A DNA stretch of 64,000 nucleotides from an uncultured Kordia sp. (GTDB lineage Bacteria; Bacteroidota; Bacteroidia; Flavobacteriales; Flavobacteriaceae), in NCBI RefSeq assembly GCF_947496985.1, contig NZ_CANMEZ010000002.1:496001-560000 (forward strand). The letters run 5' to 3'. The position numbers and the translations under genes are program-made. Under the pieces are notes generated by a model. The model was given only the letters and a program-made list of their open reading frames with translations, had not been told where the DNA came from and did not search any database. Every line of letters starts with the position of its first letter. Within the stretch, counting starts at the first letter, position 1. Positions 32,176 through 54,110 of this stretch are shown here, piece after piece.

Positions 32176-34830
32176 TTATTGTAAGTTTGGTATATCATCA
32201 GGCGTAAAATCATATAAATCGTTTGCCTCTTCCTCTTTTAATTTTTTGACTAAATCCAATGCATCAGGAATTACATCACTACACAATACAATAAGTGCGC
32301 CTTTTTCTGCATTTTTTACGGCATGTAGTATCGCTTCTTTTTCTGATGGAATAATGGTTGTTTTCTTATTTGGATCTTTCATTTTGATTCCATCATCCAA
32401 CATTTTGATCAGTTCTTCTTCTGTTTTTCCACGTAAACGCTTGTCTTGACGAATAATTACTTCATCAAACATTTCAGCGGCAATACCTCCCATTTCATTA
32501 TTATCTTCTACACGTCTATCCCCAATTCCTGCAATTATTCCAACTTTCACAGAAGCATTTAAATTATCAACAAACTGTTTTAAAGCTCGCATTCCGGCTG
32601 GATTGTGCGCATAATCGACTAAGATTTGGAAGTTTTTAAATTTGAATAAATTCAAACGTCCTGGCGTTTGCGAAGCCGAAGGAATAAATGTTTCTAAGGC
32701 AACTTTCATGTCATCAATAGAGAATCCTTTTAAGTATGCCGTAATAACTGCTGGCAATACATTTTGAATCATAAATGTAGCTTTTCCGCCAAATGTCAAT
32801 GGAACATTTACCGCTTTAATGACACGCATTTTCCATTCTCCTCTACATAAAGTAATGTATCCATTTTCATAAATTGCTGAAATTCCGCCACGCTTTTGCA
32901 TTGCTTTTATTCGCGGATTATTTTCGTCAAGCGAGAATAACGCCACATTACACTCTACATTTTTACGCATTGCATATACCAAATCGTCATCAGCATTCAA
33001 AATAGCTGTTCCGTCTGGTAAAACTGTTTCTGGAATCACTCCTTTCACTTTTGCTAATTGTTCTATAGTATGAATTCCTTTTAAACCTAAGTGATCGGCT
33101 GCAACATTAGTTACAATTCCGATATCACAATTTTTGAATCCTAAACCGGCTCTTAACAATCCACCTCGTGCACATTCTAATACAGCAAAGTTTACTGTTG
33201 GATCTTTTAGCACAAATTCTGTACTTGCAGGACCAGTACAATCACCCGTCATTAATAAACGGTTTTGAATGTATACACCATCACTAGTTGTATATCCAAC
33301 TCTATAACCTTTCATTTTTGCCATGTGTGCAATCAATCGAGTCGTTGTAGTTTTTCCGTTGGTTCCAGAAATTGCTATAATTGGAATCCGTGATGTTGAT
33401 CCTGGAGGAAATAATTTATCTATTACTGGCGCAGCAACGTTTCTTGGCAATCCTTCTGTTGGCGCCAAGTGCATACGAAATCCTGGACCTGCATTTACTT
33501 CTAATACTGCGCCACCTGTTTTTGATAGTGGCTTACTTATATCTGAAGTCATAACGTCTATTCCGCAAATATCTAAATCAATGATTTTTGATATACGTTC
33601 TGCCATAAACACATTTGCAGGATGCACCATATCGGTTACATCTTCTGCGGTTCCTCCTGTACTTAGGTTTGCAGTATCTTTTAACTCCATTACCTCGTCT
33701 TTTTCTAAGACAGTTTCTAATGTATATCCTTTAGCAGCAATGAGCGTTTGTGTGAGATCATTTACTTTAATCATGGTCAATACTTTTTCATGACCATATC
33801 CTCTGCGTGGATCTTTATTTACCTCATCAATTAATTCTTGAATGGTTGATTTTCCATCTCCAATTACATGCGCAGGTGTTCTTTTGGCAGCAGCTACTAA
33901 TTTATTATTGATTACAAGTAAACGATAATCGTCTCCGGTAATATATTTTTCTACAATTACAGATCGAGATATTTCTTGTGCAGCTTTAAATGCTACTAAT
34001 GCTTCATCATATGTATTTATATCTACTGTAATTCCACGTCCGTGATTTCCATTAATTGGTTTTATCACCAATGGAAAGCCTACATAATCACACGCACCTT
34101 TAAGGCTACGCTCTCTACGAATAATATCTCCACGTGGCACTTCTACTTCTGCTTGTTCGAGTAAATACTTTGTATCTTCTTTATCACAAGCAATTTCAAC
34201 ACCTATATTACTTGTTTCACTCGTTACAGTTGCCTGAATACGCTTTTGATTTGCACCATAACCTAATTGACATAATGAATATTTATTTAAACGAATCCAA
34301 GGAATTCCTCTACTTGCCGCTTCTTCAACAATAGAGCCTGTACTTGGACCCAAACGTGCTTCTTCACGAATTTCTCGCATTTCCTGAATATCTTCTGCCA
34401 AATCATAATCTTCACCAGAAATCAACGCTTCACAGATACGAACTGCGGCTTTTGCTGCATAACGACCTACTTTTTCTTCCATGTATGAGAAAACCACGTT
34501 GTAAACACCTTCTTCCCCATAACCACGTGTTCTTCCAAAACCTGTATCCATTCCTGCCAAGGTTTGAATTTCTAATGCAATATGTTCAATTACATGCCCC
34601 ATCCAAGTTCCGTCATCAACACGCATAAAAAATCCTCCTTCACAACCTTCAGAACATCTGTGTGAATACATGGAGGGAAACATAGCTTTTAATCGATCTC
34701 CAAAACCTTCTACTTTATTGGTTGGATATTCTTCCATCTCTTGCAGATCCAAGACCATTACGATTAATTTATGTCTTCTTATCGACCAATAATTTGGCCC
34801 TCGCATTGCGTTTATACTTCTTATTTCCAT
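32176..34830 (-). CDS. cphA: cyanophycin synthetase
   Basis: An 884-residue enzyme that builds multi-L-arginyl-poly-L-aspartate from Asp and Arg with ATP. The architecture is an N-terminal domain (1-160), an ATP-grasp domain (about 190-470, with VIKPINGNHGRGITVD near residue 255) that adds Asp to the backbone, and a Mur-ligase domain (about 490-870, with ISGTNGKTTTTRL near residue 493 and LVDYAHNPAG near residue 732) that adds Arg side chains. Length is normal for CphA. The gene diverges from cphB 184 bases away, and an isoaspartyl peptidase lies 4 kb beyond cphB, together a storage and breakdown set for nitrogen. Confidence 0.96.
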   Translation of the reverse strand: MEIRSINAMRGPNYWSIRRHKLIVMVLDLQEMEEYPTNKVEGFGDRLKAMFPSMYSHRCSEGCEGGFFMRVDDGTWMGHVIEHIALEIQTLAGMDTGFGRTRGYGEEGVYNVVFSYMEEKVGRYAAKAAVRICEALISGEDYDLAEDIQEMREIREEARLGPSTGSIVEEAASRGIPWIRLNKYSLCQLGYGANQKRIQATVTSETSNIGVEIACDKEDTKYLLEQAEVEVPRGDIIRRERSLKGACDYVGFPLVIKPINGNHGRGITVDINTYDEALVAFKAAQEISRSVIVEKYITGDDYRLLVINNKLVAAAKRTPAHVIGDGKSTIQELIDEVNKDPRRGYGHEKVLTMIKVNDLTQTLIAAKGYTLETVLEKDEVMELKDTANLSTGGTAEDVTDMVHPANVFMAERISKIIDLDICGIDVMTSDISKPLSKTGGAVLEVNAGPGFRMHLAPTEGLPRNVAAPVIDKLFPPGSTSRIPIIAISGTNGKTTTTRLIAHMAKMKGYRVGYTTSDGVYIQNRLLMTGDCTGPASTEFVLKDPTVNFAVLECARGGLLRAGLGFKNCDIGIVTNVAADHLGLKGIHTIEQLAKVKGVIPETVLPDGTAILNADDDLVYAMRKNVECNVALFSLDENNPRIKAMQKRGGISAIYENGYITLCRGEWKMRVIKAVNVPLTFGGKATFMIQNVLPAVITAYLKGFSIDDMKVALETFIPSASQTPGRLNLFKFKNFQILVDYAHNPAGMRALKQFVDNLNASVKVGIIAGIGDRRVEDNNEMGGIAAEMFDEVIIRQDKRLRGKTEEELIKMLDDGIKMKDPNKKTTIIPSEKEAILHAVKNAEKGALIVLCSDVIPDALDLVKKLKEEEANDLYDFTPDDIPNLQ

Positions 34831-34984
34831 GTGCTGTTGGTTTGGTTAATTGACAGATTTGTTTTTTTTAACAAGTCTGATCATAAATATAGAAAAATTT
34901 CACAGATTTCAGACTCCTTTTTAAGATTCTATAGCTGTAGATTAAGATTAGGCTAAAAAAAGGTTAAGAGATAAAAATTTATTT

Positions 34985-34992
34985 TACTTTTG
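34985..34992 (+). promoter_or_regulatory. cphB promoter, -7 box
   Basis: Perfect -7 box TACTTTTG, 22 bases before the start codon. A near-consensus -33 TTA lies at 34964-34966 with an 18-base spacer. Confidence 0.55.
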
Positions 34993-35014
34993 CACTCACA
35001 AAAATCACGATAAC

Positions 35015-35878
35015 ATGCAGCAGATCAAAGGTACATTGATTCCAATAGGAGGAAATGAAGATAAAGGTATTGAGGAAAATGAACAATATACACTAGAATT
35101 TATAGACGAAGGGATTTTATTTCACGTTGTTAAAGAAGCTGGTGGTGTGGATGCAAATATTGTGGTAATTCCAACGGCTTCTAGCATTCCTGTGGAAGTT
35201 GGAGAAAATTATTTAGATGCTTTTGATAAGTTAGGCTGTACAAATGTTACGGTTTTAGATATTAGAAGTAAAGAGGATTCTGAAAAAGACTCTTCTATTG
35301 AATTGATCAAAAATGCAGATTGTATTATGTTTTCTGGCGGAGATCAATCAAAAATTACAAATAAAATTGGAGGCACTCAAATACATGATATTTTAGTAGA
35401 TCGTTACCAAAATGAAGAAGGTTTTGTGATTGCAGGTACAAGCGCTGGTGCAATGGCTATGGCTACTCAAATGATTGCTGGCGGAAGTGCTTCAGAAGCC
35501 TTTATTAAAGGCGCTGTACGTATGTATAAAGGTTTAAATTTGATTCCTGAGCTGATTGTAGACACACATTTTATTCGTAGAGGACGTTTTGGCCGTCAAT
35601 CTGAAGCAGTAGCAAAGTTTCCTAATCTAATCGGAATTGGATTAGCTGAAGATACAGGAATGATTATCAAAAACGGAAACGATTGTACTGTAATTGGTTC
35701 TGGAATGGTGATTGTTTTCGATGGCGCTACACTAACACACAATAATGAAAAAGTATTGAAAGAAGGAACGCCAATGACAATGGCAAATATGACGATTCAT
35801 GTACTTTCAAACGGAGACAAGTTTGATATTAAAAATCGTACGGTTTCTGTTTTACCTATTGAGGCACCTTTTATTTAA
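35015..35878 (+). CDS. cphB: cyanophycinase
   Basis: A 287-residue serine-type exopeptidase (S51 family) that cuts cyanophycin into beta-Asp-Arg dipeptides. The nucleophile elbow GTSAGAMAM is near residue 140, with the family signatures IPIGGNEDKG near residue 12, FSGGDQSKI near residue 109 and DTHFIRRGRFGR near residue 182. No signal peptide is present, so it acts in the cytoplasm on stored polymer. It is divergent from cphA and has its own promoter, which allows opposite control of synthesis and breakdown. Confidence 0.96.
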   Translation: MQQIKGTLIPIGGNEDKGIEENEQYTLEFIDEGILFHVVKEAGGVDANIVVIPTASSIPVEVGENYLDAFDKLGCTNVTVLDIRSKEDSEKDSSIELIKNADCIMFSGGDQSKITNKIGGTQIHDILVDRYQNEEGFVIAGTSAGAMAMATQMIAGGSASEAFIKGAVRMYKGLNLIPELIVDTHFIRRGRFGRQSEAVAKFPNLIGIGLAEDTGMIIKNGNDCTVIGSGMVIVFDGATLTHNNEKVLKEGTPMTMANMTIHVLSNGDKFDIKNRTVSVLPIEAPFI

Positions 35879-37705: not shown

Positions 37706-38845
37706 CTAGCTTAAATTGGCTTTTTTGTATTGTGACGGAGAAAGTCCCGTTTCTTTTTTGAAGATTCTGTTGAAACTTGTTTTTGACTTAAATCCACATT
37801 CGTATGCAATTCCTAAAAGTGTATAATTTTCAAAATCTTTTGACGCTAATTTGTCTTTTACAGCAGCCACACGATATTTATTTATGATGTCGTAAAAAGT
37901 GATTTTCATATGCTGATTTAGCATTCCAGATAGTTTTTTATCCGTGGTTGAAATCATCTGCGCCAATTTATTCAATGTTAACGCTTCATCTAAATATGGC
38001 TTATCTGAAATAAAAATGTTTTCTAATCGTGTTTGCAATTCTTGAAACATTTCTTCATCAACAATAGATGTCACTTTGCTTTTTTCTACAATTTTTGATT
38101 GCAAAACAGGTTCTTGAATCAAAAAGTCAGGCACAAATATTTTAGATTGTCGCACTCCATAGTATCCTAAATACCCTATTAATATAACAACTAATATTAG
38201 CGTAATAAAACTAGTATCTATGGCATCTTCGCCTACATATATTTCATAACAAGTTCCTAGTAAATCCAATATTGCTACTAGTAATGTTCCTAGCAACATT
38301 TGTTTTACCCAACCAAAATCTGTTTCAGAAATTGTAGAAAAGTTAGCTTCCATTGCTTTTTTATATCTGTAAAACAGTTTTAGTGAGAATACTAAATAGA
38401 TAAGCAAATACACTATCAAACTCATAAAAAAGACTGCATTGTTATCATTTAAAACCTTTAAATAGTTGAAGACAAATTTTTTATTTACAATTGAAATGAT
38501 AAATGGAATACTAATTACGCCTATATATATAATCAAAGGAATAAAATGAATCCAATTTTTCCTAAGCAGTGTTTTATGATCTTCAAATAATGATTTTATG
38601 TATATATATAATAACGGACCAATAAAAAGTTCTATGGTATCATTAAAAATAAAGGTAATAATATAGAGCAACTTAACTTTATGCACTTCAGCATACGCAT
38701 GAAACATATATAAAAATATAATTCCAAAAAAGAGTATTAATAACTTTTGGGGAAGTTCTTTTTTCTTTGACTTAAATAATATGAGAAGAATCAGGGCGTT
38801 AATTACAATTCCTCCAATTAGCATAAAGTCAATGAGTAGTTTCAT
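37706..38845 (-). CDS. membrane-bound AraC-family transcriptional regulator
   Basis: A 379-residue protein with about seven transmembrane helices (residues 1-235) joined to a C-terminal AraC-type double helix-turn-helix (about 275-375). The second HTH reads LLGIAYECGFKSKTSFNRIFKKETGLSPSQYKK, a strong family match. Such regulators in Bacteroidota are thought to sense signals at the membrane and bind DNA directly. Its neighbours are the S41 peptidase and the isoaspartyl peptidase, so it may control one of these or the cyanophycin genes; that is inference from position. Confidence 0.9.
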   Translation of the reverse strand: MKLLIDFMLIGGIVINALILLILFKSKKKELPQKLLILFFGIIFLYMFHAYAEVHKVKLLYIITFIFNDTIELFIGPLLYIYIKSLFEDHKTLLRKNWIHFIPLIIYIGVISIPFIISIVNKKFVFNYLKVLNDNNAVFFMSLIVYLLIYLVFSLKLFYRYKKAMEANFSTISETDFGWVKQMLLGTLLVAILDLLGTCYEIYVGEDAIDTSFITLILVVILIGYLGYYGVRQSKIFVPDFLIQEPVLQSKIVEKSKVTSIVDEEMFQELQTRLENIFISDKPYLDEALTLNKLAQMISTTDKKLSGMLNQHMKITFYDIINKYRVAAVKDKLASKDFENYTLLGIAYECGFKSKTSFNRIFKKETGLSPSQYKKANLS

Positions 38846-38866: not shown

Positions 38867-39802
38867 TTAGTTACCTTTGTAGATAGAAACTTCTTCTGTT
38901 CCGTTTGAAGATTTACAGGCTCTGTACATTCCCTCGGTGTTGAAAGGCATTGCAATATTTCCTTTAGCATCAACAGCAATTAATCCTCCATCTCCACCAA
39001 TTTTTAGAATGCGCTCGTTAATTACCGTATCTGCTGCTTTTTCTAGTGAATACTCTTTATACTCCATTAAGCTAGATACATCATACGCTACAACGCCACG
39101 AATGAAATACTCACCACTTCCTGTACATGAAACTGCACAAGTTTCATTGTTTGCATAATTTCCAGCGCCAATCATTGGAGAATCTCCTACTCTACCAAAA
39201 CGTTTATTTGTCATACCTCCTGTAGAAGTAGCGGCAGCAATATTTCCATCTTGATCGCACGCAACAGCACCAACAGTTCCAAATTTTGAATCTTTCTTTA
39301 ATGAATGATCTAATTGAAATGTATCTGTATCTTTAATTTCTTGCCATTGATTATATCGTAATTCATCGTAAAAATACGATGGATTTTCTAATTCATAATT
39401 ATGCATTTTAGCAAAATACATTGCGCCTTCTCCCGCCATAAACACATGCTCGCTTTTATCCATTACATCACGTGCTAATGAAACAGGGTTTTTTATTCCT
39501 GTAATTAACGAAACTGCACCTGCATTCAATGTTTTCCCTTCCATAATAGCAGCGTCCATTTCATGTGTTCCTTCCGCAGTAAATACACTTCCTTTTCCAG
39601 CATTAAATAGATGTGAATTCTCCAGTAATTTAACTGCTGTTTCTACCGCTTCTACAGACGACTTCCCTTTTTCAAGCAATTGATAACCTGCATCCAACGC
39701 TTTTTTCAAAGCTGCTTTATATTCAGCTTCTAGTTGTGGTGTCATCATTCCTTTTACTAATGTTCCTGCGCCTCCGTGAATGGCAATTGAGATCGTTTGC
39801 AT
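38867..39802 (-). CDS. isoaspartyl peptidase/L-asparaginase (Ntn hydrolase)
   Basis: A 311-residue plant-type asparaginase. It self-cleaves before a threonine that becomes the nucleophile, here in KFGTVGAVACD near residue 172; IAIHGGAGT near residue 6 and GRVGDSPMIGAGNYAN near residue 208 are family signatures. There is no signal peptide, so it is cytoplasmic. Members split isoaspartyl dipeptides, including the beta-Asp-Arg released by cyanophycinase, which fits with cphA and cphB nearby. It is the only other clear nitrogen-storage gene in the region. Confidence 0.93.
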   Translation of the reverse strand: MQTISIAIHGGAGTLVKGMMTPQLEAEYKAALKKALDAGYQLLEKGKSSVEAVETAVKLLENSHLFNAGKGSVFTAEGTHEMDAAIMEGKTLNAGAVSLITGIKNPVSLARDVMDKSEHVFMAGEGAMYFAKMHNYELENPSYFYDELRYNQWQEIKDTDTFQLDHSLKKDSKFGTVGAVACDQDGNIAAATSTGGMTNKRFGRVGDSPMIGAGNYANNETCAVSCTGSGEYFIRGVVAYDVSSLMEYKEYSLEKAADTVINERILKIGGDGGLIAVDAKGNIAMPFNTEGMYRACKSSNGTEEVSIYKGN

Positions 39803-39945: not shown

Positions 39946-40101
39946 TTAGTCATCACATGGATCACATTTATGATAGATATCTCCTGAAGAGCAAAACAAG
40001 GTATCCCAAGTTCCTCCTTTAATATTTTTTAAGTTTTCAGCTAAAAGAGTTGAAATAGATTCTTTGTTGAGAGACAACGATTTTAAATTTCTTTTTTTCA
40101 T
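39946..40101 (-). CDS. lanthipeptide-like GG-leader peptide
   Basis: A 51-residue peptide. Its leader opens MKKRNLKSLSLNKESIS and ends LKNIKGG at about residue 30. The 21-residue core contains three cysteines and several Ser/Thr (TWDTLFCSSGDIYHKC then DPCDD). The MKK-NLKSL-LNK-SIS pattern is the leader type found on predicted class I lanthipeptides and related GG peptides in Flavobacteriia. No LanB/LanC-like or radical SAM maturase is adjacent, so the enzyme must be elsewhere or the peptide is unmodified. It has its own terminator. Confidence 0.75.
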   Translation of the reverse strand: MKKRNLKSLSLNKESISTLLAENLKNIKGGTWDTLFCSSGDIYHKCDPCDD

Positions 40102-40250: not shown

Positions 40251-40661
40251 TTAATTTATTTTGGAATTTATATTATGAATTAAAAGAGCAACTCCAAATA
40301 AAAATGAAAATAAGAGTATACTTATTCCGAAACTATTACTCATAGGGGTAAATATAAAACATAACAAAACTGAAATAATCAATGAAATCGAATATATGAA
40401 ATCGATCATTTTAGACAGTTTCAATAAAAATAATTTCAAAAATGTATATGATCGATTTTTATATATTGTGAATATAAAGCTGTTTACACTTAAGACTAAA
40501 AGTATAGGTGGTATTAATAAAGTATTGTCTCTTTTCATTCGTATGTATTTTGATAAACTAAACTCATACGGTTCTAACTCAAAATAAACGAAAATTGAAA
40601 GAATAATTATTAGGATAAGTAAGCAAATAAATAAGAAGTTTGATAAATAATTTATTTTCAT
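40251..40661 (-). CDS. small four-helix membrane protein, unknown function
   Basis: A 136-residue, very hydrophobic protein with four predicted helices (residues about 7-27, 48-65, 87-105 and 110-130), flanked by Lys/Arg-rich turns such as RMKRDN and IYKNRSYTF. I recognise no family. It lies directly downstream of the three tandem GG peptides on the same strand, about 100 bases after the last one, so an immunity or transport-helper role is possible but not shown. It could also be an unrelated orphan. Confidence 0.55.
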   Translation of the reverse strand: MKINYLSNFLFICLLILIIILSIFVYFELEPYEFSLSKYIRMKRDNTLLIPPILLVLSVNSFIFTIYKNRSYTFLKLFLLKLSKMIDFIYSISLIISVLLCFIFTPMSNSFGISILLFSFLFGVALLIHNINSKIN

Positions 40662-40762: not shown

Positions 40763-40870
40763 TTACGCTATATTATTAGGTTTCGTTCTATCAACATCAT
40801 CGACTTCTTGCGCTCCGCCGTAAATAGTATTCATTTGTATTTTCGTTAATTCTTGAAATTTTTCTAACAT
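40763..40870 (-). CDS. GG-leader peptide A of a tandem set
   Basis: A 35-residue peptide: leader MLEKFQELTKIQMNTIYGG, then a 16-residue acidic core without cysteine (AQEVDDVDRTKPNNIA). Its leader length, MLxxF start and GG site match peptides B and C upstream. Promoter and 5' region are nearly the same as those of peptide B, showing recent tandem duplication. No family or activity is known to me. Confidence 0.65.
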   Translation of the reverse strand: MLEKFQELTKIQMNTIYGGAQEVDDVDRTKPNNIA

Positions 40871-40900
40871 AACTAAAAAATTTAAAATTAATATATAGTA

Positions 40901-40931
40901 TGAAAGTAAAACAGCAAAAAAGCGAAAACAA
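40901..40931 (-). promoter_or_regulatory. promoter of peptide A
   Basis: Minus strand: -33 TTG (40929-40931), 20-base spacer, TACTTTCA (40901-40908). Spacing and boxes are identical in the promoter of peptide B at 41134-41164. The -7 box departs from TAnnTTTG in its last two bases. Confidence 0.5.
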
Positions 40932-40984
40932 GAATCGTTACATTTGGTTTATAAAACAAAGGTGATTAAAAAAGTAGAAAAGAA

Positions 40985-41006
40985 AAAGCGAACCGAAGTT
41001 CGCTTT
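40985..41006 (-). terminator. terminator of peptide B
   Basis: Minus strand AAAGCGAAC-TTCG-GTTCGCTTT followed by TTCTTTT, 8 bases after the peptide B stop codon. Confidence 0.85.
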
Positions 41007-41014
41007 AAAGAAGA

Positions 41015-41104
41015 TTACAACAAAATAGCATCTTCAATAATGACATACCCTCCAGTAATAGAGTTAGAATTCTGAATCTCGAATTTTTCAAATTGTGATA
41101 ACAT
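41015..41104 (-). CDS. GG-leader peptide B of a tandem set
   Basis: A 29-residue peptide: leader MLSQFEKFEIQNSNSITGG, then a 10-residue hydrophobic core (YVIIEDAILL). It is the shortest of the three and is too small for ordinary gene calling. Evidence that it is real: leader similarity to peptide C (FEKFEI against FKNFEI), a promoter copied in peptide A, and a terminator 8 bases after the stop. The core is so short that a signalling peptide is as likely as a bacteriocin. Confidence 0.65.
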   Translation of the reverse strand: MLSQFEKFEIQNSNSITGGYVIIEDAILL

Positions 41105-41133
41105 AATAATAAATTTTAAAATTAATAATGATA

Positions 41134-41164
41134 TGAAAGTAAAACAGGAAAGAATGAGAAACAA
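41134..41164 (-). promoter_or_regulatory. promoter of peptide B
   Basis: Minus strand: TTG (41162-41164), 20-base spacer, TACTTTCA (41134-41141). The surrounding 100 bases align well with the region upstream of peptide A, including CCTTTGATTCATAAACC against CCTTTGTTTTATAAACC. Confidence 0.5.
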
Positions 41165-41224
41165 GAATCACCACCTAAGGTTTATGAATCAAAGGTTATA
41201 AAAACAGTAGTATGAAAAAAGAAA

Positions 41225-41288
41225 AAGCGGCCCGAAAGTCAGTCACGGTCAGAATTTCTTCCGACCGTGACTGAACCGAAGCCCGCTT
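41225..41288 (-). terminator. compound terminator of peptide C with a nested hairpin
   Basis: Outer stem AAGCGG/CCGCTT (41225-41230 and 41283-41288), inner perfect 10-bp stem AGTCACGGTC/GACCGTGACT (41241-41250 and 41263-41272). The sequence CCGAA appears on both sides of the inner hairpin (41232-41236 and 41276-41280), as though a hairpin was inserted in the loop of the usual CGAA-loop terminator. Confidence 0.75.
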
Positions 41289-41318
41289 AAATTAAAAAAC
41301 TATAAATCACCCGCCGTC

Positions 41319-41501
41319 TTAGCTATTGTTTTGCGACTGTTCTTCATTATGCTCCGGGTCAGTAATGTAAGTACTCCAATTGGCTGATTTTTCGTGATAA
41401 TCAGTATTAGACGACTCTTCTTCATTATGCTCTGGATCAGTAATCCCTCCATATACATTTTGTGGTTTTTCAATTTCGAAATTTTTAAATTTTTCTAACA
41501 T
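41319..41501 (-). CDS. GG-leader peptide C with duplicated acidic core
   Basis: A 60-residue peptide: leader MLEKFKNFEIEKPQNVYGG (19 residues), then a core in which ITDPEHNEE occurs twice, at about residues 20-28 and 46-54. The two copies are also near-identical in DNA (26 bases with 2 changes, 41341-41366 and 41419-41444), so the duplication is recent or conserved. The Thr followed by Asp/Glu pattern, in repeats, recalls multi-core graspetides (ester-linked peptides made by ATP-grasp ligases), but no such ligase is adjacent. There are no cysteines. Confidence 0.75.
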   Translation of the reverse strand: MLEKFKNFEIEKPQNVYGGITDPEHNEEESSNTDYHEKSANWSTYITDPEHNEEQSQNNS

Positions 41502-41780: not shown

Positions 41781-44612
41781 ATGGCAGACCAAAAACGACT
41801 TTTTTTACTAGATGCGTACGCACTTATTTTTAGAGGATATTACGCGTTTATTAAAAACCCAAGAATTAACTCTAAAGGACTAGATACTTCAGCAATTTTA
41901 GGATTCACAAATTCTTTATTAGATGTCATCAAACGGGAACGTCCAGATCATTTAGCAGTATGTTTTGATAAAGGTGGAAGTGTAGATCGTGTGGAAGCTT
42001 TTCCAGCATATAAAGCCAATAGACAAGAAACCCCAGAAGCCATCAGATTAGCTGTTCCATATATTGAAAATATTCTGAGAGCCATGCATATTCCTATTAT
42101 TGTAAAAGAAGGATATGAAGCTGATGATATTATTGGAACGCTTTCTAAAATGGCAGAAAAGGAAGGATATAAAACTTTTATGGTTACGCCTGATAAGGAT
42201 TTTGCTCAGTTGGTTTCTGAAAATATATTTATGTATCGCCCACGATTTGGTGGTGGATACGAAACTTGGGGAATTCCAGAAGTACAAGAAAAATTTGGTG
42301 TAGAACGCCCAGAGCAAGTAATTGATTTCTTAGGAATGATGGGAGATTCTGTAGATAATATCCCTGGGTTACCTGGTGTTGGAGAAAAAACAGCTAAGAA
42401 ATTTTTAGCTGCGTATGGTAGTATGGAAGGATTACTTGCCAATACACATGAACTAAAAGGAAAGATGAAGGAGAAAGTGGAAGCAAGTAAAGAATTAGGT
42501 TTGCTCTCGAAACAATTGGCAACCATTATGCTAGATGTCCCTGTAGAATTTCATGAAAAAGATTTTGAATTATCGCAACCAAATATTGAGGAAGTAACTG
42601 AAATATTTATGGATTTAGAATTCCGCAGATTACTCGATAATTTGATTAAAACATTCAAAGCTCCTGAGGAAAATTCAGCGGAAGCAAACACAAAAACCAC
42701 TTCAAAGACAACTAAAACAGCAGCTCCAACTGGGCAATTTGACTTATTTGCGGTTCCTGGAAGTGGAAATACAACAGAAGAAGCAACCGTTTCTGGCTAT
42801 CAAACTATAAAAACAACTGAACATTTTTACCAATTGGCAAATACGCCACTATCGCGAAAAATGTTACTACAAAAATTACTGAAACAACAAAGCGTTTGTT
42901 TTGACACAGAAACTACAGGTTTAAAAGCACTAGAAGTAGAATTGGTTGGTGTTGCATTTTCTTGGGAGAAAGGAAAAGGATATTATGTCGCTTTCCCAGA
43001 AGATCAAGCTGAAACGAAAGCTATTTTAGAAGAGTTCCGTCCGTTTTTTGAAAATACTACGATTGAAAAAGTTGGACAAAATTTAAAATACGATATCAAA
43101 GTATTATCAAGCTATGATATGCCTGTAAAAGGGCCAATTTTCGATACGATGATTGCACACTATTTGATTAATCCGGATATGCGCCATAATATGGACATTT
43201 TATCGGAAACCTATTTAAATTATCAACCAGTTTCTATTGTAGAATTGATTGGTAAAAAAGGAAAAAATCAATTGTCTATGCGACAAGTTCCATTGGAGCA
43301 GCAAACAGAATATGCAGTTGAAGACGCAGATATTACGTATCAGTTAAAAGAACATTTCATTAAAGAATTGGAAAGTGGTCATTTGACAAAATTATTTACA
43401 GATGTAGAAGTTCCATTAGTAAGCGTACTTTCAGCTATGGAAATTGAAGGAATCAATATAGATCCTGGCTTTTTAGGTGAATTATCTAAGGAGTTAACTA
43501 TGGATGTTGATCGTTTAGAGAAAGGAATTTTTGAGCAAGCAGGTGAAGAATTCAACTTAGCTTCTCCAAAACAGTTAGGTCCAATTTTGTTTGACAAACT
43601 AAAGTTAGTAGACAAGCCTAAGAAGACAAAAACTGGTCAGTATTCTACTGCTGAAGATGTACTTTCATACCTAGCAAAAGATCATCAAATTGTTGCCGAT
43701 ATTTTAGAATGGCGTCAATATAGAAAATTACAAAGCACCTATGTAGATGCGTTGCCAAATGAAATAAACCCAAAAACAAATCGTATTCATACAGTATATG
43801 CACAAGCGGTTGCCGCAACAGGACGATTGAGTTCTAACAATCCGAATTTACAGAACATTCCAATCCGAACAGAGCGTGGACGACAAGTTCGAAAAGCATT
43901 TGTACCAAGAGATGAAAATTATGTATTACTTGCTGCCGATTATTCTCAGATTGAATTACGAATTATTGCAGCTTTGAGTAAAGAAGACACCATGATTGAA
44001 GCTTTTAAAAATGGCGCAGATATTCACGCTTCTACAGCTTCTAAAGTATTTGATATTGGTTTGGATGAAGTAACTCGTGAGCAACGTAGCAATGCAAAAA
44101 CAGTAAACTTTGGAATAATTTATGGCGTTTCTGCTTTTGGATTAAGTAATCAAACTTCACTTACGAGAAGTGAATCTAAAGAATTGATTGACACCTATTA
44201 TGAAACCTATCCAAAGTTAAGAGCATACATGTCGAATCAAGTGGCGTTTGCACGTGAAAATGGATATGTAGAAACGGTTTTAGGAAGACGTCGTTATTTA
44301 AAAGATATCAATTCGCGTAATGCCATTGTACGTGGAGCCGCTGAACGAAATGCTGTCAATGCACCTATTCAGGGAAGCGCAGCTGATATTATAAAATTAG
44401 CAATGATTAATATTCACAATCGTTTTTCAACAGAAGGTTTTAAATCAAAAATGTTATTACAAGTTCATGATGAATTGGTGTTTGACGCGCATAAAGATGA
44501 ATTAGAAATCATAAAACCAATCATTAAAGAAGAAATGGAAAATGCTTTCAAAATAGATGTTCCATTAGATGTTGAAATAGGTATTGGACAAAATTGGCTG
44601 GAAGCGCATTAA
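41781..44612 (+). CDS. polA: DNA polymerase I
   Basis: A 943-residue family A polymerase for repair and Okazaki-fragment processing. The order is a 5'-nuclease domain (1-290, with AVCFDKGG near residue 59 and the metal site KEGYEADDIIG near residue 112), a 3'-5' exonuclease domain (about 345-530, with intact VCFDTETTGL near residue 373), and the polymerase domain with motif A LLAADYSQIELR near residue 716, motif B RSNAKTVNFGIIYG near residue 773 and motif C LQVHDELVF near residue 893. All three activities seem intact. Length is normal for Bacteroidota. Confidence 0.98.
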   Translation: MADQKRLFLLDAYALIFRGYYAFIKNPRINSKGLDTSAILGFTNSLLDVIKRERPDHLAVCFDKGGSVDRVEAFPAYKANRQETPEAIRLAVPYIENILRAMHIPIIVKEGYEADDIIGTLSKMAEKEGYKTFMVTPDKDFAQLVSENIFMYRPRFGGGYETWGIPEVQEKFGVERPEQVIDFLGMMGDSVDNIPGLPGVGEKTAKKFLAAYGSMEGLLANTHELKGKMKEKVEASKELGLLSKQLATIMLDVPVEFHEKDFELSQPNIEEVTEIFMDLEFRRLLDNLIKTFKAPEENSAEANTKTTSKTTKTAAPTGQFDLFAVPGSGNTTEEATVSGYQTIKTTEHFYQLANTPLSRKMLLQKLLKQQSVCFDTETTGLKALEVELVGVAFSWEKGKGYYVAFPEDQAETKAILEEFRPFFENTTIEKVGQNLKYDIKVLSSYDMPVKGPIFDTMIAHYLINPDMRHNMDILSETYLNYQPVSIVELIGKKGKNQLSMRQVPLEQQTEYAVEDADITYQLKEHFIKELESGHLTKLFTDVEVPLVSVLSAMEIEGINIDPGFLGELSKELTMDVDRLEKGIFEQAGEEFNLASPKQLGPILFDKLKLVDKPKKTKTGQYSTAEDVLSYLAKDHQIVADILEWRQYRKLQSTYVDALPNEINPKTNRIHTVYAQAVAATGRLSSNNPNLQNIPIRTERGRQVRKAFVPRDENYVLLAADYSQIELRIIAALSKEDTMIEAFKNGADIHASTASKVFDIGLDEVTREQRSNAKTVNFGIIYGVSAFGLSNQTSLTRSESKELIDTYYETYPKLRAYMSNQVAFARENGYVETVLGRRRYLKDINSRNAIVRGAAERNAVNAPIQGSAADIIKLAMINIHNRFSTEGFKSKMLLQVHDELVFDAHKDELEIIKPIIKEEMENAFKIDVPLDVEIGIGQNWLEAH

Positions 44613-47578: not shown

Positions 47579-48484
47579 GTGAGCGCCTTAAAAACTATAT
47601 TATATTTTTCCCTTTTTAAGTATCCGTTGACGAGAACAGAAATTTTTCAATTCTCCAACAATACGAATCAAAAAGAAATCAATAGCGAAATAGATTTGCT
47701 ATTGGAAAAAGGTGTCATTTTCAATTTTGATGGCTTTTATGTTGATGTAAACGATCCTGATCGTGTAGAACGTAGGTTGAAAGGAAATGAAATGGCACGA
47801 AATATTATGCCTAAAGCAATAAAAGTTTCTAAAAAAATAGCCAAATTCCCATATGTAAAAGGCGTGTGTTTATCTGGTGCATTGTCAAAAGGTTTTTATG
47901 ATGATGATGGTGATTTTGACTTTTTTATCATTACCAAGCCAAATCGTTTATGGATTGCTAGAACACTACTGGTTTTATACAAAAAAATATTCTTGTTCAA
48001 TTCTAAGAAATATTTCTGTGTCAACTATTTTGTCAGCACCGACAAATTAGAGATTCCTGAAAAAAATATTTTCACAGCTACTGAAATAGTAACGTTGATT
48101 CCTTTATATGGAAAAGAAACATTTGAAGCCTTCCAAGTAGCAAATACATGGTCTGATCCATATTTCCCGAATAAACCAGTTACAAAAACAAGTACTATAA
48201 GAAATACCGAAAAGAGTAGCTTTTCCAAACTGATCCAAAAAACATTTAATGGTTCTTTTGGACTTACGTTTGATAAGTTTTTACAAAAGCTTACACTCAA
48301 AAAGTGGGTTAAAAAGTTTAAACACTTGGCAAAAGAAGATTTCGATATTGCTATGAAATCTACTAGACATGTATCTAAACATCACCCGCAAAACTTTCAA
48401 CGAAAAGTAATTACTCGACTTGACGAAAGATATAAAGACATCGTAAAACAGTACAACCTGAAATTACCCGAAGAACATGCTTGA
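47579..48484 (+). CDS. nucleotidyltransferase-like protein
   Basis: A 301-residue protein starting at GTG; no earlier in-frame start is available and the first ATG would drop about 70 residues. An N-terminal winged-helix-like part (1-80) precedes a nucleotidyltransferase fold with SGALSKGFYDDDGDFDFFII near residues 100-119, where the S-G-x4-G and D-x-D pattern fits the metal site of the MNT/Pol-beta superfamily. A basic helical tail follows (residues 200-300). It begins the surface-glycan cluster and overlaps the next gene by 8 bases. Its target is unknown. Confidence 0.75.
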   Translation: MSALKTILYFSLFKYPLTRTEIFQFSNNTNQKEINSEIDLLLEKGVIFNFDGFYVDVNDPDRVERRLKGNEMARNIMPKAIKVSKKIAKFPYVKGVCLSGALSKGFYDDDGDFDFFIITKPNRLWIARTLLVLYKKIFLFNSKKYFCVNYFVSTDKLEIPEKNIFTATEIVTLIPLYGKETFEAFQVANTWSDPYFPNKPVTKTSTIRNTEKSSFSKLIQKTFNGSFGLTFDKFLQKLTLKKWVKKFKHLAKEDFDIAMKSTRHVSKHHPQNFQRKVITRLDERYKDIVKQYNLKLPEEHA

Positions 48485-49940
48485 TATTGTTTTTTCACAT
48501 TCTTACTATTATAAGTTTGACGCCAAACAATGGAAAAATCAAACGCCATATCCGCCACTTGGAACCCTATATGCTGCTTCCTATTTACGTGAAAACAATT
48601 ATAACGTTGGTGTGTTTGATGCGAATCTTTTAGATGACCCTAAAACGATTCAACCTTATTTAGAAGAACACAAACCTAACACATTCGTAATTTACGATGA
48701 TGGCTTTAATTATTTAACAAAAATGTGCTTAACCACTATGCGTGAAGCCGCTTTTGAAATGATTAAAATTGCCAAAAATTTAGCGTGTCACGTGATTGTT
48801 TGTAGTTCAGATTCAACAGATCATTATGAAAAATATTTAGAAGCTGGTGCAGATTTTATTATTCAAGGTGAAGGTGAGATTTCTTTAAAAGAATTGGTAG
48901 ATGCTTTGTCTAACAATGAAGATACTTCAAAAATTAAAGGATTGGTTTTTGAAAAAGAAGGTGAAATTATCAAAAATCCAAAACACCCCGTTTTGCGTAA
49001 TTTAGATGAATTGCCAATGCCTGCTTGGGATTTAATTGACATTGAACCATATCGTGAAATTTGGGAAAATGGAGGAAATGAATTTACATTAAATATGGCG
49101 ACAACACGTGGTTGCCCATTTAAGTGTAATTGGTGTGCAAAACCAATCTATGGAAATCGTTACAACTCACATTCTCCAGAATACATTACAAAACACATTA
49201 AATATTTGAGCGAAACCTATGGTGTAAATCGTTTTTGGATGTGTGATGATATTTTTGGCTTAAAGCCTAATTGGGTTCAGAATTTTAATAAAGAACTCAA
49301 AAAAGAAAAACTATCCATATCCTATTATATACAAAGTCGCGTTGATTTATTATTAAAAGAAGATACTATTGATGCGTTGGCAGAAAGTGGCTTGGAAGAA
49401 GTTTGGGTTGGTGCAGAAAGTGGTTCGCAAGCCATTTTAGATGCAATGGATAAAGAAACTAAAGTGGAACAAATTTATGAAGCAACGCATTTGTTGAAAG
49501 AAAAAAACGTTCGTGTAGCATTCTTTATTCAGTTTGGTTATTTAGAAGAAACCAAAGAAGATATTCAGAAAACAATTGACATGATTAAAGAATTGGTTCC
49601 TGACAATATTGGTGTTTCTGTTTCCTATCCGCTTCCAGGAACTAAATTTTATGATAAAGTAAAAGATGATCTAAAGCTAAAAGCAAATTGGACTGATTCT
49701 GACGATTTAGCTATGATGTTCAAAGGAACTTACAACACACAATTTTACAGAAAATTACAACGTTACGTTCACAAAGAATTTCGTAAAAGTCAGGCTGTTC
49801 AAAACTTTAAAAAATTCTTTAAAAACCCGTTTTCAATTTCTAAATCTGAGTTACGATTGATGATTTTGTTAGGGTATTATGTACCAGCCGCCTTCATCGA
49901 TAAATTGCAATTGAAAAATATGGAGAATACAAATGCATAG
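48477..49940 (+). CDS. B12-binding radical SAM protein
   Basis: A 487-residue enzyme with an N-terminal cobalamin-binding domain (about 1-170) and a radical SAM TIM barrel (about 195-420). The [4Fe-4S] motif is CPFKCNWC in TRGCPFKCNWCAKPIYG near residue 215, and the second SAM-binding element VWVGAESGSQAILDAMDK near residue 320 is typical. Such enzymes often methylate unreactive carbons or rearrange skeletons of lipids and natural products. A methyltransferase gene overlaps its end by 8 bases, and a second pair of the same kind follows. Confidence 0.93.
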   Translation: MLDIVFSHSYYYKFDAKQWKNQTPYPPLGTLYAASYLRENNYNVGVFDANLLDDPKTIQPYLEEHKPNTFVIYDDGFNYLTKMCLTTMREAAFEMIKIAKNLACHVIVCSSDSTDHYEKYLEAGADFIIQGEGEISLKELVDALSNNEDTSKIKGLVFEKEGEIIKNPKHPVLRNLDELPMPAWDLIDIEPYREIWENGGNEFTLNMATTRGCPFKCNWCAKPIYGNRYNSHSPEYITKHIKYLSETYGVNRFWMCDDIFGLKPNWVQNFNKELKKEKLSISYYIQSRVDLLLKEDTIDALAESGLEEVWVGAESGSQAILDAMDKETKVEQIYEATHLLKEKNVRVAFFIQFGYLEETKEDIQKTIDMIKELVPDNIGVSVSYPLPGTKFYDKVKDDLKLKANWTDSDDLAMMFKGTYNTQFYRKLQRYVHKEFRKSQAVQNFKKFFKNPFSISKSELRLMILLGYYVPAAFIDKLQLKNMENTNA

Positions 49941-50715
49941 TGATTTTGATATAGCAGCTTCACAATACGATTCTATTTTCACGTATTCTAATATTGGCAA
50001 AGCACAACGCAAATTGGTATTTAAATATATCAATCCAATTATTAAACAAGAAAAAAAACGTTCAATTTTAGAGTTAAATTGTGGCACTGGTGCTGATGCA
50101 ATTGAATTTGCAAAACTAAACCACGATGTAATTGCAACCGACATTTCCTCAGGAATGATCGAAAAAGCAAAAGCAAAAGCGCATCCAGAAAATGTAACGT
50201 TTAAAGTCCAAGATATTAATACCATTACAAAAGATACATTCAACAAAAAGTTTGACTTTATTTTTTCAGATTTTGGTGGTTTAAATTGTCTCTCAAAAAA
50301 ACAATTAACTACCTTTTTAGAAACATCTACAGGCTTACTAAATCCAAAAGGAAAATTAGTAATGATCATTATGCCCAAACATTGCTTGTGGGAACGTTTA
50401 TATTTTAATCTAAAAGGAGATCGCATAAAAGCTAATAGAAGAAACACAAACAAAAGTGTTATAGCCAACGTGGATGGTGTAGGTGTAGAAACTTGGTATT
50501 TTAACCCTAAAGAAATTATTGAATTAGCGCCTTCAAACTACACCAAAGGACTTATAAAACCTATTGGACTTACAATTCCGCCATCTTATTTAGAAAATTC
50601 TTTTTTAGCAAAAACACCTTTCCTATCAATTTTTAAAGGTTTAGATTCAATATTAACACATTCATCATTAGCAAAATACGCAGATCATTTTTTGATTGAA
50701 TTACAAAAAGCATAA
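49933..50715 (+). CDS. class I SAM-dependent methyltransferase
   Basis: A 260-residue Rossmann-fold methyltransferase; the SAM motif ILELNCGTGADAIEFA is near residue 45, followed by ATDISSGMIEKA. The acidic loop and the DFGGLNCL post-motif are typical of small-molecule methyltransferases. It overlaps the upstream radical SAM gene by 8 bases, so the two may act on one substrate. The methyl acceptor is unknown. Confidence 0.9.
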   Translation: MHSDFDIAASQYDSIFTYSNIGKAQRKLVFKYINPIIKQEKKRSILELNCGTGADAIEFAKLNHDVIATDISSGMIEKAKAKAHPENVTFKVQDINTITKDTFNKKFDFIFSDFGGLNCLSKKQLTTFLETSTGLLNPKGKLVMIIMPKHCLWERLYFNLKGDRIKANRRNTNKSVIANVDGVGVETWYFNPKEIIELAPSNYTKGLIKPIGLTIPPSYLENSFLAKTPFLSIFKGLDSILTHSSLAKYADHFLIELQKA

Positions 50716-50859
50716 CAGTTTTCCACAGTTCGATTATCCAAAAACTATTGGATTCTAAATAAGCAAAGACAACTCATTTTAACTTTATAAGTACCTAAAA
50801 CATCTTTATATTTACATCAGCTAAAAGCTGAAATAACCAGAAACTAGCAACAAGAATAC

Positions 50860-52245
50860 ATGAGCATCATTCTTACACATACTTATTTTTTATTTGAAGA
50901 TGAAAAAGAACAAAGCATCATGCGCCCGTATGCGCCGTTGGGATTGTTATATATTTCTTCATATTTAAACGAAAACAAAGTTGAAAATCATGTGTATGAT
51001 TCTACGTTTTATTCCAAAGTAGATCAACTTCGATTTATAGAAGAAAAACAACCTAAAGCAATTGCTATTTACACCAATTTAATGACAAAAATTAATGTAA
51101 TTGAATTGGTTAAAATTCTAAATACTGATGACAAATATGGCTTCCCTAAAATTATTTTAGGTGGACCTGATATTACATATAACTTAGAAAATTACCTAAA
51201 TACAGGTGTTGATTTTTTAGTGATTGGAGAAGGCGAACAAACAACGCTAGAACTTTATCAAGCAATTATTCATGATAAAGACTTTAATGAAATTCACGGG
51301 ATTGCATATTTAAAAAATGGTGAAGTTAAAAAAACACCACCACGAATGCGCATGAAAAGCTTGAAAGAATTGCCATTACCAAACAGAGCTGCCATTCCTG
51401 TAGAAAAATATTTAGACACTTGGAAAACACATCACGGGCAAAGTTCTATGACGGTTAGTACACAACGTGGCTGTCCGTATACATGTAAATGGTGTAGTAC
51501 GGCAGTTTATGGACAAAGTTATAGAAGGCGTCCACCAGACATGGTTGCAGCCGAATTAAAAATGCTGAAAGAAACCTATAATCCAGATGGAATTTGGTTT
51601 GTGGACGATGTTTTTAGTGTAAGTCATAAATGGATTGAAAAATTTCATGAAGAAGTTATCAAGCAAGATGCCATTATTCCGTTTGAATGTATTACGCGTG
51701 CAGAACGCTTAAACGATCAAATTTTACAATTATTGAAAGAAGCTGGTTGTTTCCGAATTTGGATTGGTGCCGAAAGTGGTTCACAAAAAATAATTGATGC
51801 CATGGATCGTCGTGTGGATGTAAATGTGGTAAAAGAAGCTATTCAAAAAACAAACGCACTGGGTATGGAAACTGGCACGTTTATTATGGTAGGTTATCCT
51901 GGCGAAGATGAGCAAGATATCAAAGAAACAATTGATTATTTGAAAGCTGCAGATCCAACACATTTTACCATTACAGTAGCGTATCCAATCAAAGGAACTT
52001 CTTTATATACTGAAATTGAAGACAAAATTACGGTCAAGCCAGATTGGGATACATCTACTGATCGTGAAATAGATTTTACACGAACATATTCGAGAAAATT
52101 TTATGACTACGCAGTACGTCGTATTGTAAATGAAGTCAATTATAACAAAGAATTGTTAAAAGGAAAAAATCGTAACTTCATCACATCGTTAAAGCTTAAA
52201 ACAAAATCAGTTTTAGCACGAACAGGAATGCTTTTACACAAATAA
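50860..52245 (+). CDS. second B12-binding radical SAM protein
   Basis: A 461-residue paralogue of the enzyme at 48477. It has a cobalamin-binding domain (1-165, with SSYLNENKVENHVYDS) and a radical SAM domain with CPYTCKWC in QRGCPYTCKWCSTAVYGQSY near residue 203, then IWIGAESGSQKIIDAMDR near residue 303 and VGYPGEDEQDI. Like its paralogue it is followed directly by a methyltransferase (1-base overlap), making a repeated two-gene module. A gap of 144 bases with a possible promoter precedes it. Confidence 0.93.
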   Translation: MSIILTHTYFLFEDEKEQSIMRPYAPLGLLYISSYLNENKVENHVYDSTFYSKVDQLRFIEEKQPKAIAIYTNLMTKINVIELVKILNTDDKYGFPKIILGGPDITYNLENYLNTGVDFLVIGEGEQTTLELYQAIIHDKDFNEIHGIAYLKNGEVKKTPPRMRMKSLKELPLPNRAAIPVEKYLDTWKTHHGQSSMTVSTQRGCPYTCKWCSTAVYGQSYRRRPPDMVAAELKMLKETYNPDGIWFVDDVFSVSHKWIEKFHEEVIKQDAIIPFECITRAERLNDQILQLLKEAGCFRIWIGAESGSQKIIDAMDRRVDVNVVKEAIQKTNALGMETGTFIMVGYPGEDEQDIKETIDYLKAADPTHFTITVAYPIKGTSLYTEIEDKITVKPDWDTSTDREIDFTRTYSRKFYDYAVRRIVNEVNYNKELLKGKNRNFITSLKLKTKSVLARTGMLLHK

Positions 52246-52994
52246 TGATAGATTTTAGTCGTACAACTCAACAGCAAAATGTTTACTATCTGACGCCTGA
52301 AAACCCTGATTTTTCTAGGTATTACCTCGCCGTACGCGAAAAAGAAGATCGAATTTTATCAGATTACGAAGTTCGACAACTTCCATATATAAAACGTTAC
52401 GAATGGGAGTTTCGTGAAAAATCTACAGAACGCTTCATTCAATACATTTCAGACAAAAATAAATCATTAAAAATTTTAGATATTGGCTGTGGAAATGGTT
52501 GGTTTTCGAATAAAATTGCAAAAATTTCAGAAACTATTCAAATAATTGGATTAGATATAAATCGTGAAGAACTGGAACAAGCAGCACGTATTTTTAAAAC
52601 GAAGAATCTTTATTTTGTATATGCAGATATTTTTAAAGTTTCTACAAAGCTTGAAGCACAATTTGATATTATCACCTTAAATGGTGCGATTCAATATTTT
52701 GAAGATTTTAAAGGATTTATCACTCTTTTACAAACATTTTTAAAGCCTAATGGAGAAATCCATATTATAGACAGTCCATTTTACAAAACAGCTTCAGTTG
52801 CAGACGCAAAAGAACGGACAAAAGAATATTATACAGAGATTGGTGTTCCGGAAATGGCTGAAAATTATTTCCATCATGACGAAAAATTGATTGCCGAGTT
52901 TGATCTTTTATACAAATACAGATGGAATATTATTCATAAGATTTTAGGTAAAAAAGATTCTCCTTTTTCTTGGTATCGATTCACAAAAAAGTAA
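52245..52994 (+). CDS. class I SAM-dependent methyltransferase
   Basis: A 249-residue methyltransferase. The SAM-binding motif ILDIGCGNGWFSNKIA is near residue 77, followed by GLDINREELEQA and the LNGAIQYFEDF post-motif. It starts within the stop codon of the preceding radical SAM gene. It is related in type, but not closely in sequence, to the methyltransferase at 49933. Confidence 0.9.
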   Translation: MIDFSRTTQQQNVYYLTPENPDFSRYYLAVREKEDRILSDYEVRQLPYIKRYEWEFREKSTERFIQYISDKNKSLKILDIGCGNGWFSNKIAKISETIQIIGLDINREELEQAARIFKTKNLYFVYADIFKVSTKLEAQFDIITLNGAIQYFEDFKGFITLLQTFLKPNGEIHIIDSPFYKTASVADAKERTKEYYTEIGVPEMAENYFHHDEKLIAEFDLLYKYRWNIIHKILGKKDSPFSWYRFTKK

Positions 52995-52998
52995 ACAC

Positions 52999-54108: not shown

Positions 54109-54110
54109 GC

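Follow-up and report, generated by a model that had tools for sequence, protein, structure and literature searches.

The stretch analysed here, called the window below, comprises 64,000 nucleotides of an uncultured Kordia sp. (contig NZ_CANMEZ010000002.1, positions 496,001 to 560,000). Between polA and the gene of a beta-aspartyl peptidase it carries, on the minus strand, three short open reading frames (ORFs), which we call peptides A, B and C (Table 1). All three start with a 19-residue leader of the form MLxxF...GG, followed by mutually unrelated cores; that of C contains a repeated segment (91% identity over 33 nt). The minus-strand ORFs bear out the original prediction for this locus, which had described three orphan double-glycine (GG) peptides with such leaders, unrelated cores and a repeat in C. 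GG leaders carry hydrophobic residues at positions -4, -12 and -15, a rule that the three leaders follow, with Leu or Phe at -12. None of the cores has a cysteine, and those of A and C contain Thr or Ser alongside Asp and Glu.

No model of Pfam or NCBIfam reaches A, B or C above its cut-off. Peptide A scores 13.1 bits against TIGR01847 (bacteriocin_sig; cut-off 15.7) and 16.4 bits against BlpC (cut-off 70). B and C match none of the bacteriocin_sig, ComC and BlpC models, and all three peptides are without a match to NF038153, the class I lanthipeptide L1a leader.

Table 1. Peptide genes, control elements and neighbouring genes of the locus, in window positions
Feature	Position	Strand	Remarks
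Peptide A	40763..40870	-	35 aa; leader MLEKFQELTKIQMNTIYGG, core AQEVDDVDRTKPNNIA
Peptide B	41015..41104	-	29 aa from ATG; leader MLSQFEKFEIQNSNSITGG, core YVIIEDAILL
Peptide C	41319..41501	-	60 aa; leader MLEKFKNFEIEKPQNVYGG, core with repeated ITDPEHNEE segment
24-bp palindromic operator of A	40940..40963	-	ACCTTTGTTTTATAAACCAAATGT; centre 81 nt before ATG
24-bp palindromic operator of B	41173..41196	-	ACCTTTGATTCATAAACCTTAGGT; centre 80 nt before ATG
Control region of A	40874..40988	-	74% identical to that of B over 115 nt
Control region of B	41107..41221	-	74% identical to that of A
Promoter-like TTG-N20-TACTTT before A	40903..40931	-	
Promoter-like TTG-N20-TACTTT before B	41136..41164	-	
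Terminator-like hairpin after B	40985..41006	-	AAAGCGAACTTCGGTTCGCTTT and T-rich tail; z-score -5.16
Long terminator-like hairpin after C	41225..41288	-	z-score -5.15; T-rich tail; absent from the list of the pattern scan
DNA polymerase I (polA), island flank	41781..44612	+	
Beta-aspartyl peptidase type protein (Asparaginase_2), other island flank	38867..39802	-	
AraC-type regulator without tetratricopeptide repeat match	37706..38845	-	379 aa; 80% identical orthologue in the same place in Kordia sp. 2-867
Orphan class I lanthipeptide-type precursor (L1a leader)	39946..40101	-	NF038153, 32.2 bits, cut-off 22
Membrane-protein-like ORF within the peptide island	40251..40661	-	136 aa; no family match above cut-off

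As had been predicted, the upstream regions of A and B are alike: they share 115-nt blocks that end just before the respective ATGs. The TTG-N20 promoter proposed at the same time is present as a string before both genes; at 15 occurrences of TTG-N20-TAnTTT in the window, against 13.6 expected by chance, it is by itself no evidence. A terminator for each transcription unit had also been proposed. Strong hairpins follow B and C, and the stretch after A has none (z-score -0.36). The shared block contains a further element that the original prediction had not noted, the near-palindrome ACCTTTGATTYATAAACCAAAGGT, which gives both genes a 24-bp putative operator at nearly the same distance from the start codon.

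The leaders belong to a family with the consensus MLEKFxxFxIxNxxxIxGG. A model of five leaders from the same genome had matches in all of 11 Kordia genomes at the loose threshold of E<=10, and with a model of 45 leaders 76 matches were obtained in 10 of them at E<=0.01. In Flavobacteriaceae, 12 of 397 genomes matched the leader model at E<=0.001, a lower bound, as a limited number of candidates was scored per genome; three of the 12 are Kordia, and three of the nine others (G154, G276, G285) hold no peptide under the leader matrix. A leader DNA pattern run over GTDB contigs matched 46 stretches, 37 of them with family-like peptides, all from Bacteroidota, and nine without. Besides Kordia (including K. 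aestuariivivens, K. algicida, K. jejudonensis and K. periserrulae), these comprise Lacinutrix, Dokdonia, Aquimarina, Winogradskyella and, weakly, Mucilaginibacter (two stretches). Among 12,614 ATG ORFs a 19-residue leader matrix singled out 65 distinct peptides at scores of at least 33, the next ORF scoring 5.7; since the stretches had been fetched with the leader model, this gap attests to the sharpness of the matrix and is not the outcome of an unbiased screen. As judged from sequence, the leader defines a Kordia-centred family that is sporadic in other Bacteroidota, and the predicted family thereby survived the search for related leaders in other genomes. One tandem array, at L049:9528-10139 of Kordia sp. 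2-867, consists of five MLEKF-family genes placed head to tail, with related PECF-type cores.

The original prediction had seen a conserved leader joined to a diverging core, and here it is incomplete or wrong. The core LTTVEYIIIL occurs in four Kordia peptides and in two of one Dokdonia metagenome-assembled genome, the E-type core DHxxxxGxPPDN in Kordia, Lacinutrix and Aquimarina, and ATEYIIL, TATDDL(W/A)KWR and the A type, AQxVxDxDRTxP, also recur. Over full cores, the nonsynonymous (pN) and synonymous (pS) values were 0.09/0.57 for the A type (4 peptides), 0.01/0.43 for LTTVEYIIIL (6 peptides) and 0.08/0.71 for ATEYIIL (5 peptides), and in the small groups 0.15/0.44 for EIKTKV (3 peptides) and 0.11/0.72 for CDAYG (2 peptides); pN of the leaders in these groups ranges from 0.08 to 0.23. 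Several core types, that of A included, are thus kept between species or genera, their pN being clearly lower than pS in these alignments. The core of C, however, has no relative in the 11 Kordia genomes, and the B and C cores themselves have the leader as their sole support. For the TATDDLWKWRKN cores we entertained a darobactin-like crosslink, whose motif is WxWxK, but several members have A in place of the first W, and the idea was abandoned.

With 29 to 60 codons and no curated family above cut-off, A, B and C could be taken for chance ORFs of AT-rich intergenic DNA. Conservation of leader and core across genera, the synonymous excess and the orthologous locus of A largely dispose of this reading, as do the A-type, TATDDL and other conserved cores, and we give it next to no weight. 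A, B and C are genuine orphan GG-leader peptides.

The polA locus is a hot spot for such peptides. Family members adjoin polA in the present genome, in K. aestuariivivens (L063) and in G008 (L042), G009 (L069) and G006 (L071), and the beta-aspartyl peptidase closes the far side of the island in L063, L069 and L071. An orthologue of A, leader and core, lies beside polA in three other Kordia (L063, L069, L042), where the accompanying peptides vary. Allowing up to 3 mismatches, none of the three has the palindrome, and none shows, judged by eye, a B-type control region. The shared A/B block therefore looks like a control region put before an old peptide gene: by sequence, A and B appear to have a control region in common, not a recent common gene, and the two do not look like young duplicates of one peptide gene.

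At up to 3 mismatches, the palindrome gives three matches at two places in the window, where none is expected. Across the 11 Kordia genomes it yields 24 distinct sites in 7 genomes, against one match of the reversed control pattern. With the exception of G001:C1:494777, these sites were inspected by eye: 18 of the 23 precede the ATG of a strict GG peptide, three that of a peptide with GM, AG or GS, and two neither. At random window positions a strict GG ORF was met at comparable distance in 18 of 4000 trials. The peptides linked to the operator belong to several leader families, with MLEKF at 6 sites besides the L1a-like MKKRNL, MKKQ...KPPKTYRYCESD, MKRKSIVLRL and MLKKISSIKDVEV. Another motif, TAAATCATCTAATTTA, precedes the TATDDL-type genes. 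We also noted a second palindromic motif, about TTAAATCATCTAATTTAA, found in either orientation roughly 80 nt before other MLEKF-family genes (L029, L022, L018, L124, L173); Kordia L029 and Lacinutrix L173 share it and also have similar LPxGW...CNSDG cores.

Five of the 23 sites, in five genomes, overlap the 3' end of a gene for a regulator with tetratricopeptide repeats (TPR), a membrane segment and an AraC-type DNA-binding domain, and a peptide gene then follows. On contig C1 of the present genome such a cassette (L213) has an operator that differs from those of A and B at 5 and 4 of 24 positions, respectively; the other 32 cassettes compared need at least 9 mismatches. This link between A, B and a distant regulator-peptide cassette was missing from the original prediction. 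Control of A and B could instead lie with the AraC-type regulator encoded near the island, which is kept beside it in Kordia sp. 2-867 at 80% identity. We consider this very unlikely: the peptides at that locus, the A orthologue included, lack a palindrome site at up to 3 mismatches, and it is at the end of TPR-AraC genes that the palindrome is found in five genomes.

The present genome has 54 matches to the helix-turn-helix (HTH) domain at E<=1e-8 and at least 38 distinct paralogous TPR-AraC regulator ORFs (loci L213-L250), 35 of them over 500 aa. Within 260 nt downstream of the regulator, 28 of the 38 have a strict GG ORF, compared with 1 of 88 other genes of at least 300 aa in the compared stretches; under a looser rule read from the listing (GA, AG, GK and one start 248 nt away) the figure rises to 34 of 38. 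In 19 of 33 cassettes the stretch before the peptide ATG contains a palindrome with 9 or more of 12 positions paired (shuffled sequences: mean 4.6, maximum 9 in 200 runs), and in 17 of these 19 its centre lies 73-93 nt upstream of the ATG. Half-sites vary from cassette to cassette, around a centre that is often TTTATAAA. The peptide genes of the cassettes are often Cys-rich and sometimes stand two or three in a row.

A second regulator, L219, with a perfect palindrome, behaves likewise, so that the association of operator, regulator and GG peptide does not depend on one case. Its operator has 20 sites in 9 of the 11 genomes and none for the reversed control. Sixteen sites were inspected: 14 have a GG-type peptide (GG, GA, AG, GK or GM) 61-92 nt downstream, one via an internal start. 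Nine of the 16 are found where the orthologous regulator gene ends, and both sites that lack a GG-type peptide are regulator cassettes. In peptide E (contig C3) only one half resembles the L219-type operator (3 of 20 mismatches), and it is not among the matches at up to 3 of 24, so that we assign E to no regulator. Outside the genus, a related regulator turned up at E<=1e-18 in 40 of the 119 genomes sampled; 29 loci there, one per genome, gave 8 strict GG ORFs, of which we accepted 7 (L264 looks false).

Among the full-length regulators, HTH_18 is matched in 35 of 35 and TPR_12 in 33 of 35. The N-terminus is hydrophobic in 29 of 35, and all 35 have a transmembrane (TM) segment before the HTH, with more Lys and Arg after the TM segment than before it; the TPR part is therefore predicted to lie outside the cytoplasmic membrane. 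The L213 regulator has 566 aa, with a signal-peptide-like N-terminus, a TPR superhelix of about 300 residues, one TM helix and the AraC-type HTH. Its structure model (mean predicted local distance difference test score, pLDDT, 89) places TPR helices at 31-326 and a long helix at 330-437, followed by the HTH. A structure search with this model returned the TPRs of LGN/Pins first and NprR and Rap behind them (E about 1e-5), and a profile search agrees. In the open full-text literature, outside which most subscription journals lie, we met no account of TPR-AraC regulators paired with GG peptides.

Possible export and maturation machinery is encoded in trans. Every one of the 11 Kordia genomes has C39 peptidase matches, among them one whose open frame runs to about 740 codons (in the present genome, C1:484719 is above cut-off), and exactly one LanB match, within about 10 kb of such a C39 match. 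At six loci (the present genome, G001, G004, G006, G009 and G010) the exporter, of 735-736 aa, adjoins an HlyD-like gene recognised by eye and stands near TPR-regulator-like genes; the Pfam check of the exporter covers the locus of the present genome (L216). G004 has a single C39 match (E<=1e-5) and yet has family peptides, which makes the exporter of about 740 codons the best candidate for processing them. A grasp-with-spasm ATP-grasp match occurs in 10 of the 11 genomes, above the family cut-off in 9; the single TIGR04192 match of the present genome is on contig C8, away from A, B and C. Among the scanned genes that flank these peptides no ATP-grasp or SPASM peptide maturase was recognised; a cyanophycin-type ligase and two radical S-adenosylmethionine (SAM) proteins lie farther off in the window. 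The original prediction of an orphan, dispersed family with possible machinery only in trans is thus upheld.

From here it is a short step to regard A, B and C as substrates of the single LanB or grasp-with-spasm enzyme, to be turned into crosslinked products. One LanB per genome, a near-universal ATP-grasp enzyme and scattered precursors would suit such a scheme, and Thr or Ser with Asp or Glu in the cores of A and C leaves ATP-grasp links possible. One family peptide of another genome (Kordia ALOHA_ZT_18, L062:9426-14850) is about 1.5 kb from an ATP-grasp gene (TIGR04192) on the opposite strand. We nevertheless find modification in trans unlikely: no lanthionine can form in cores without Cys, the core types have by eye no modification motif in common, and of 45 twenty-residue leaders no more than 3 are picked up, all weakly, by the models for lanthipeptide leaders, TIGR04149 and bacteriocin_sig (NF038153: 1 of 45, E 0.057); for bacteriocin_sig, ComC and BlpC the figure at E<=1 is likewise 3 of 45 at most. 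A lanthipeptide or grasp-modified product was accordingly rejected as the default for A, B and C, which have no Cys, no leader model above cut-off and no recognised peptide maturase among the flanking genes scanned. The L062 stretch also contains two small ORFs of the form MKTSLF..KKEAG..GG and a gene that resembles the TPR regulators by eye.

We propose, with moderate confidence, that A and B are satellites in the regulon of one TPR-AraC regulator, that they are exported by a C39 transporter encoded elsewhere and that the peptides are sensed through the TPR domain. The leader would be cut after GG by this C39 peptidase-transporter (PCAT), releasing mature peptides of 16, 10 and 41 residues from A, B and C, respectively. 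A and B, though not demonstrably C, would belong to a dispersed regulon whose mark is the 24-bp palindrome some 80 nt upstream of the start codon. The L213-type operator, which overlaps the 3' end of its regulator gene and precedes the following GG-peptide gene, would be bound by a dimer of that regulator; each regulator may in this manner recognise its own palindrome and activate the adjacent peptide gene along with satellite peptide genes elsewhere. The TPR domain outside the membrane would then perceive the exported peptides, so that many peptide-signal circuits would run side by side. Extended to the genus, and a good deal more tentatively, the scheme becomes a network in which about 38 membrane-anchored TPR-AraC receptors of this genome may each have their own GG pheromone and private operator, satellites being re-wired by gain of an operator-promoter block.

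Several observations weigh against this proposal, beginning with the A orthologues described above, which have neither the operator nor the B-type control region. For the peptides C and D and those of L041 and L051 no cognate operator could be convincingly assigned. A count over 90 family members gave 5 palindromes with 9 or more of 12 pairs and a centre 68-95 nt upstream of the ATG, against 4.7 in shuffles; palindrome regulons can thus accommodate no more than a part of the family, and most members may be controlled otherwise. At 78-82 nt, palindromes of at least 8 of 12 pairs number 12 against 4.7 (1 of 500 shuffles reaches 12, and other bands hold 1 to 6), in a band chosen after the positions had been seen; palindrome control of the whole MLEKF family was therefore discarded as unsupported at 9 of 12, with a positional signal at 8 of 12 in the post-hoc band only. 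Where the palindrome overlaps the end of a regulator gene, part of its conservation could be coding, a concern from which the orphan sites are free. Four of the 38 regulators have no small peptide ORF within 260 nt, and 21 of the 29 top loci in other genera have no strict GG ORF. G010 lacks family members although it has the exporter, LanB and an operator linked to a regulator, which means that the machinery does not depend on family peptides. Finally, the closest TPR structures are those of eukaryotic LGN/Pins and designed TPRs, with NprR and Rap weaker; peptide sensing is thus not specifically indicated by a fold that is compatible with peptide binding.

The same data can be read with the peptides as regulated output only. 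The TPR-AraC proteins would sense an unrelated cue, such as envelope state, nutrients or another organism, and the peptides would be secreted antimicrobial or otherwise bioactive products instead of signals. Biosynthetic clusters are a frequent target of AraC-type regulators; many of the cassette peptides resemble lanthipeptides in being long and Cys-rich, one operator serves several leader families as in a coordinated arsenal, and the 136-aa membrane ORF of the island could be an immunity protein. Of seven cassette or operator-linked peptides scanned, however, only one reached the leader cut-off for class I lanthipeptides. Against this reading, the repeated adjacency of one regulator and one peptide, strict in 28 of 38 cases and often accompanied by a palindrome, resembles signal-receptor pairs. 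We see output without signalling as a serious possibility, though not the probable one. Altogether, the original interpretation stands for the orphan family and its possible machinery in trans, and is wrong or incomplete on core divergence and on a recent A/B duplication; its description of the locus was sound in the main, apart from the terminator of A and the meaning given to the duplicated region.

Some neighbouring features deserve mention in their own right. The L1a-type precursor of the island has a 76% identical orthologue at the same locus in K. aestuariivivens, and the 136-aa membrane-like ORF has a ATTCAATGAAT palindrome roughly 50 nt upstream. A cyanophycin-synthetase-like ligase, an S51 peptidase and the beta-aspartyl peptidase lie close together (32176-35878 and 38867-39802), possibly as a set for cyanophycin storage and breakdown. 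About 3 kb beyond polA, a plus-strand run at 47579-55235 encodes two radical SAM proteins, both of which also match a B12-binding domain (one below cut-off), two methyltransferases and two GDSL hydrolases; it is unlike a peptide maturase set.

Quorum sensing by short peptides is known mostly from Gram-positive bacteria. If true, our proposal of dozens of parallel regulator-peptide cassettes in one genus of Flavobacteriaceae would suggest that Bacteroidota have their own large-scale version of peptide signalling, and it would help explain why GG-leader precursors are found there far from any maturase or exporter. The operator is also a practical handle, as sequence alone then suffices to connect orphan peptide genes with a candidate regulator and their function becomes testable, for genes whose size of 29 to 60 codons tends to escape length-based gene callers.

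Each part of the system has counterparts elsewhere. The regulator gives a weak match to FimS-type sensors (NF053520, 25.9 bits, cut-off 600) over its TPR region; FimS is a histidine kinase, whereas the Kordia regulator is an AraC-type one-component protein. Class I lanthipeptides (NF038153) have GG leaders as well, and L1a-type precursors, one of them in the island, share the operator with MLEKF peptides; A, B and C differ in having no NF038153 match and no Cys. The double-glycine pheromones ComC and BlpC, which work with ComAB and ComDE, resemble the family in their GG leader with its hydrophobic pattern, their short core and C39-class exporter, and in weak NF033214/NF033215 matches. The BlpC match, however, is far below cut-off, the candidate receptor is no histidine kinase pair and the exporter is not encoded beside the genes. 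Graspetides of the grasp-with-spasm type in Bacteroidota combine GG leaders with diverse cores, and TPR-protein genes of unclear role lie near their loci, according to passages of PMC8939145. The Kordia family likewise has GG leaders, diverse cores and a link to TPR proteins; it departs from graspetides in that the scanned neighbours of A, B and C include no ATP-grasp or SPASM maturase, and those passages describe no TPR-AraC operator network.

RRNPP quorum-sensing systems have many paralogous pairs per genome. In Rap, NprR, PlcR and PrgX the receptor gene is adjacent to a short propeptide gene, as described in PMC10075063, which covers complete Firmicutes genomes. Several features set the Kordia system apart: its regulator has a predicted membrane anchor, a TPR domain predicted to lie outside and an AraC-type HTH, where an RRNPP receptor is cytoplasmic and fed by an oligopeptide permease; its propeptides have GG leaders; its host is Gram-negative; and no TPR regulator gene adjoins A, B or C. 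The TPR-AraC cassettes nevertheless pair a receptor-like gene with a short propeptide gene (28 of 38 strictly, 34 of 38 loosely), just as RRNPP loci do, and the TPR fold of the Kordia regulator matches NprR and Rap.

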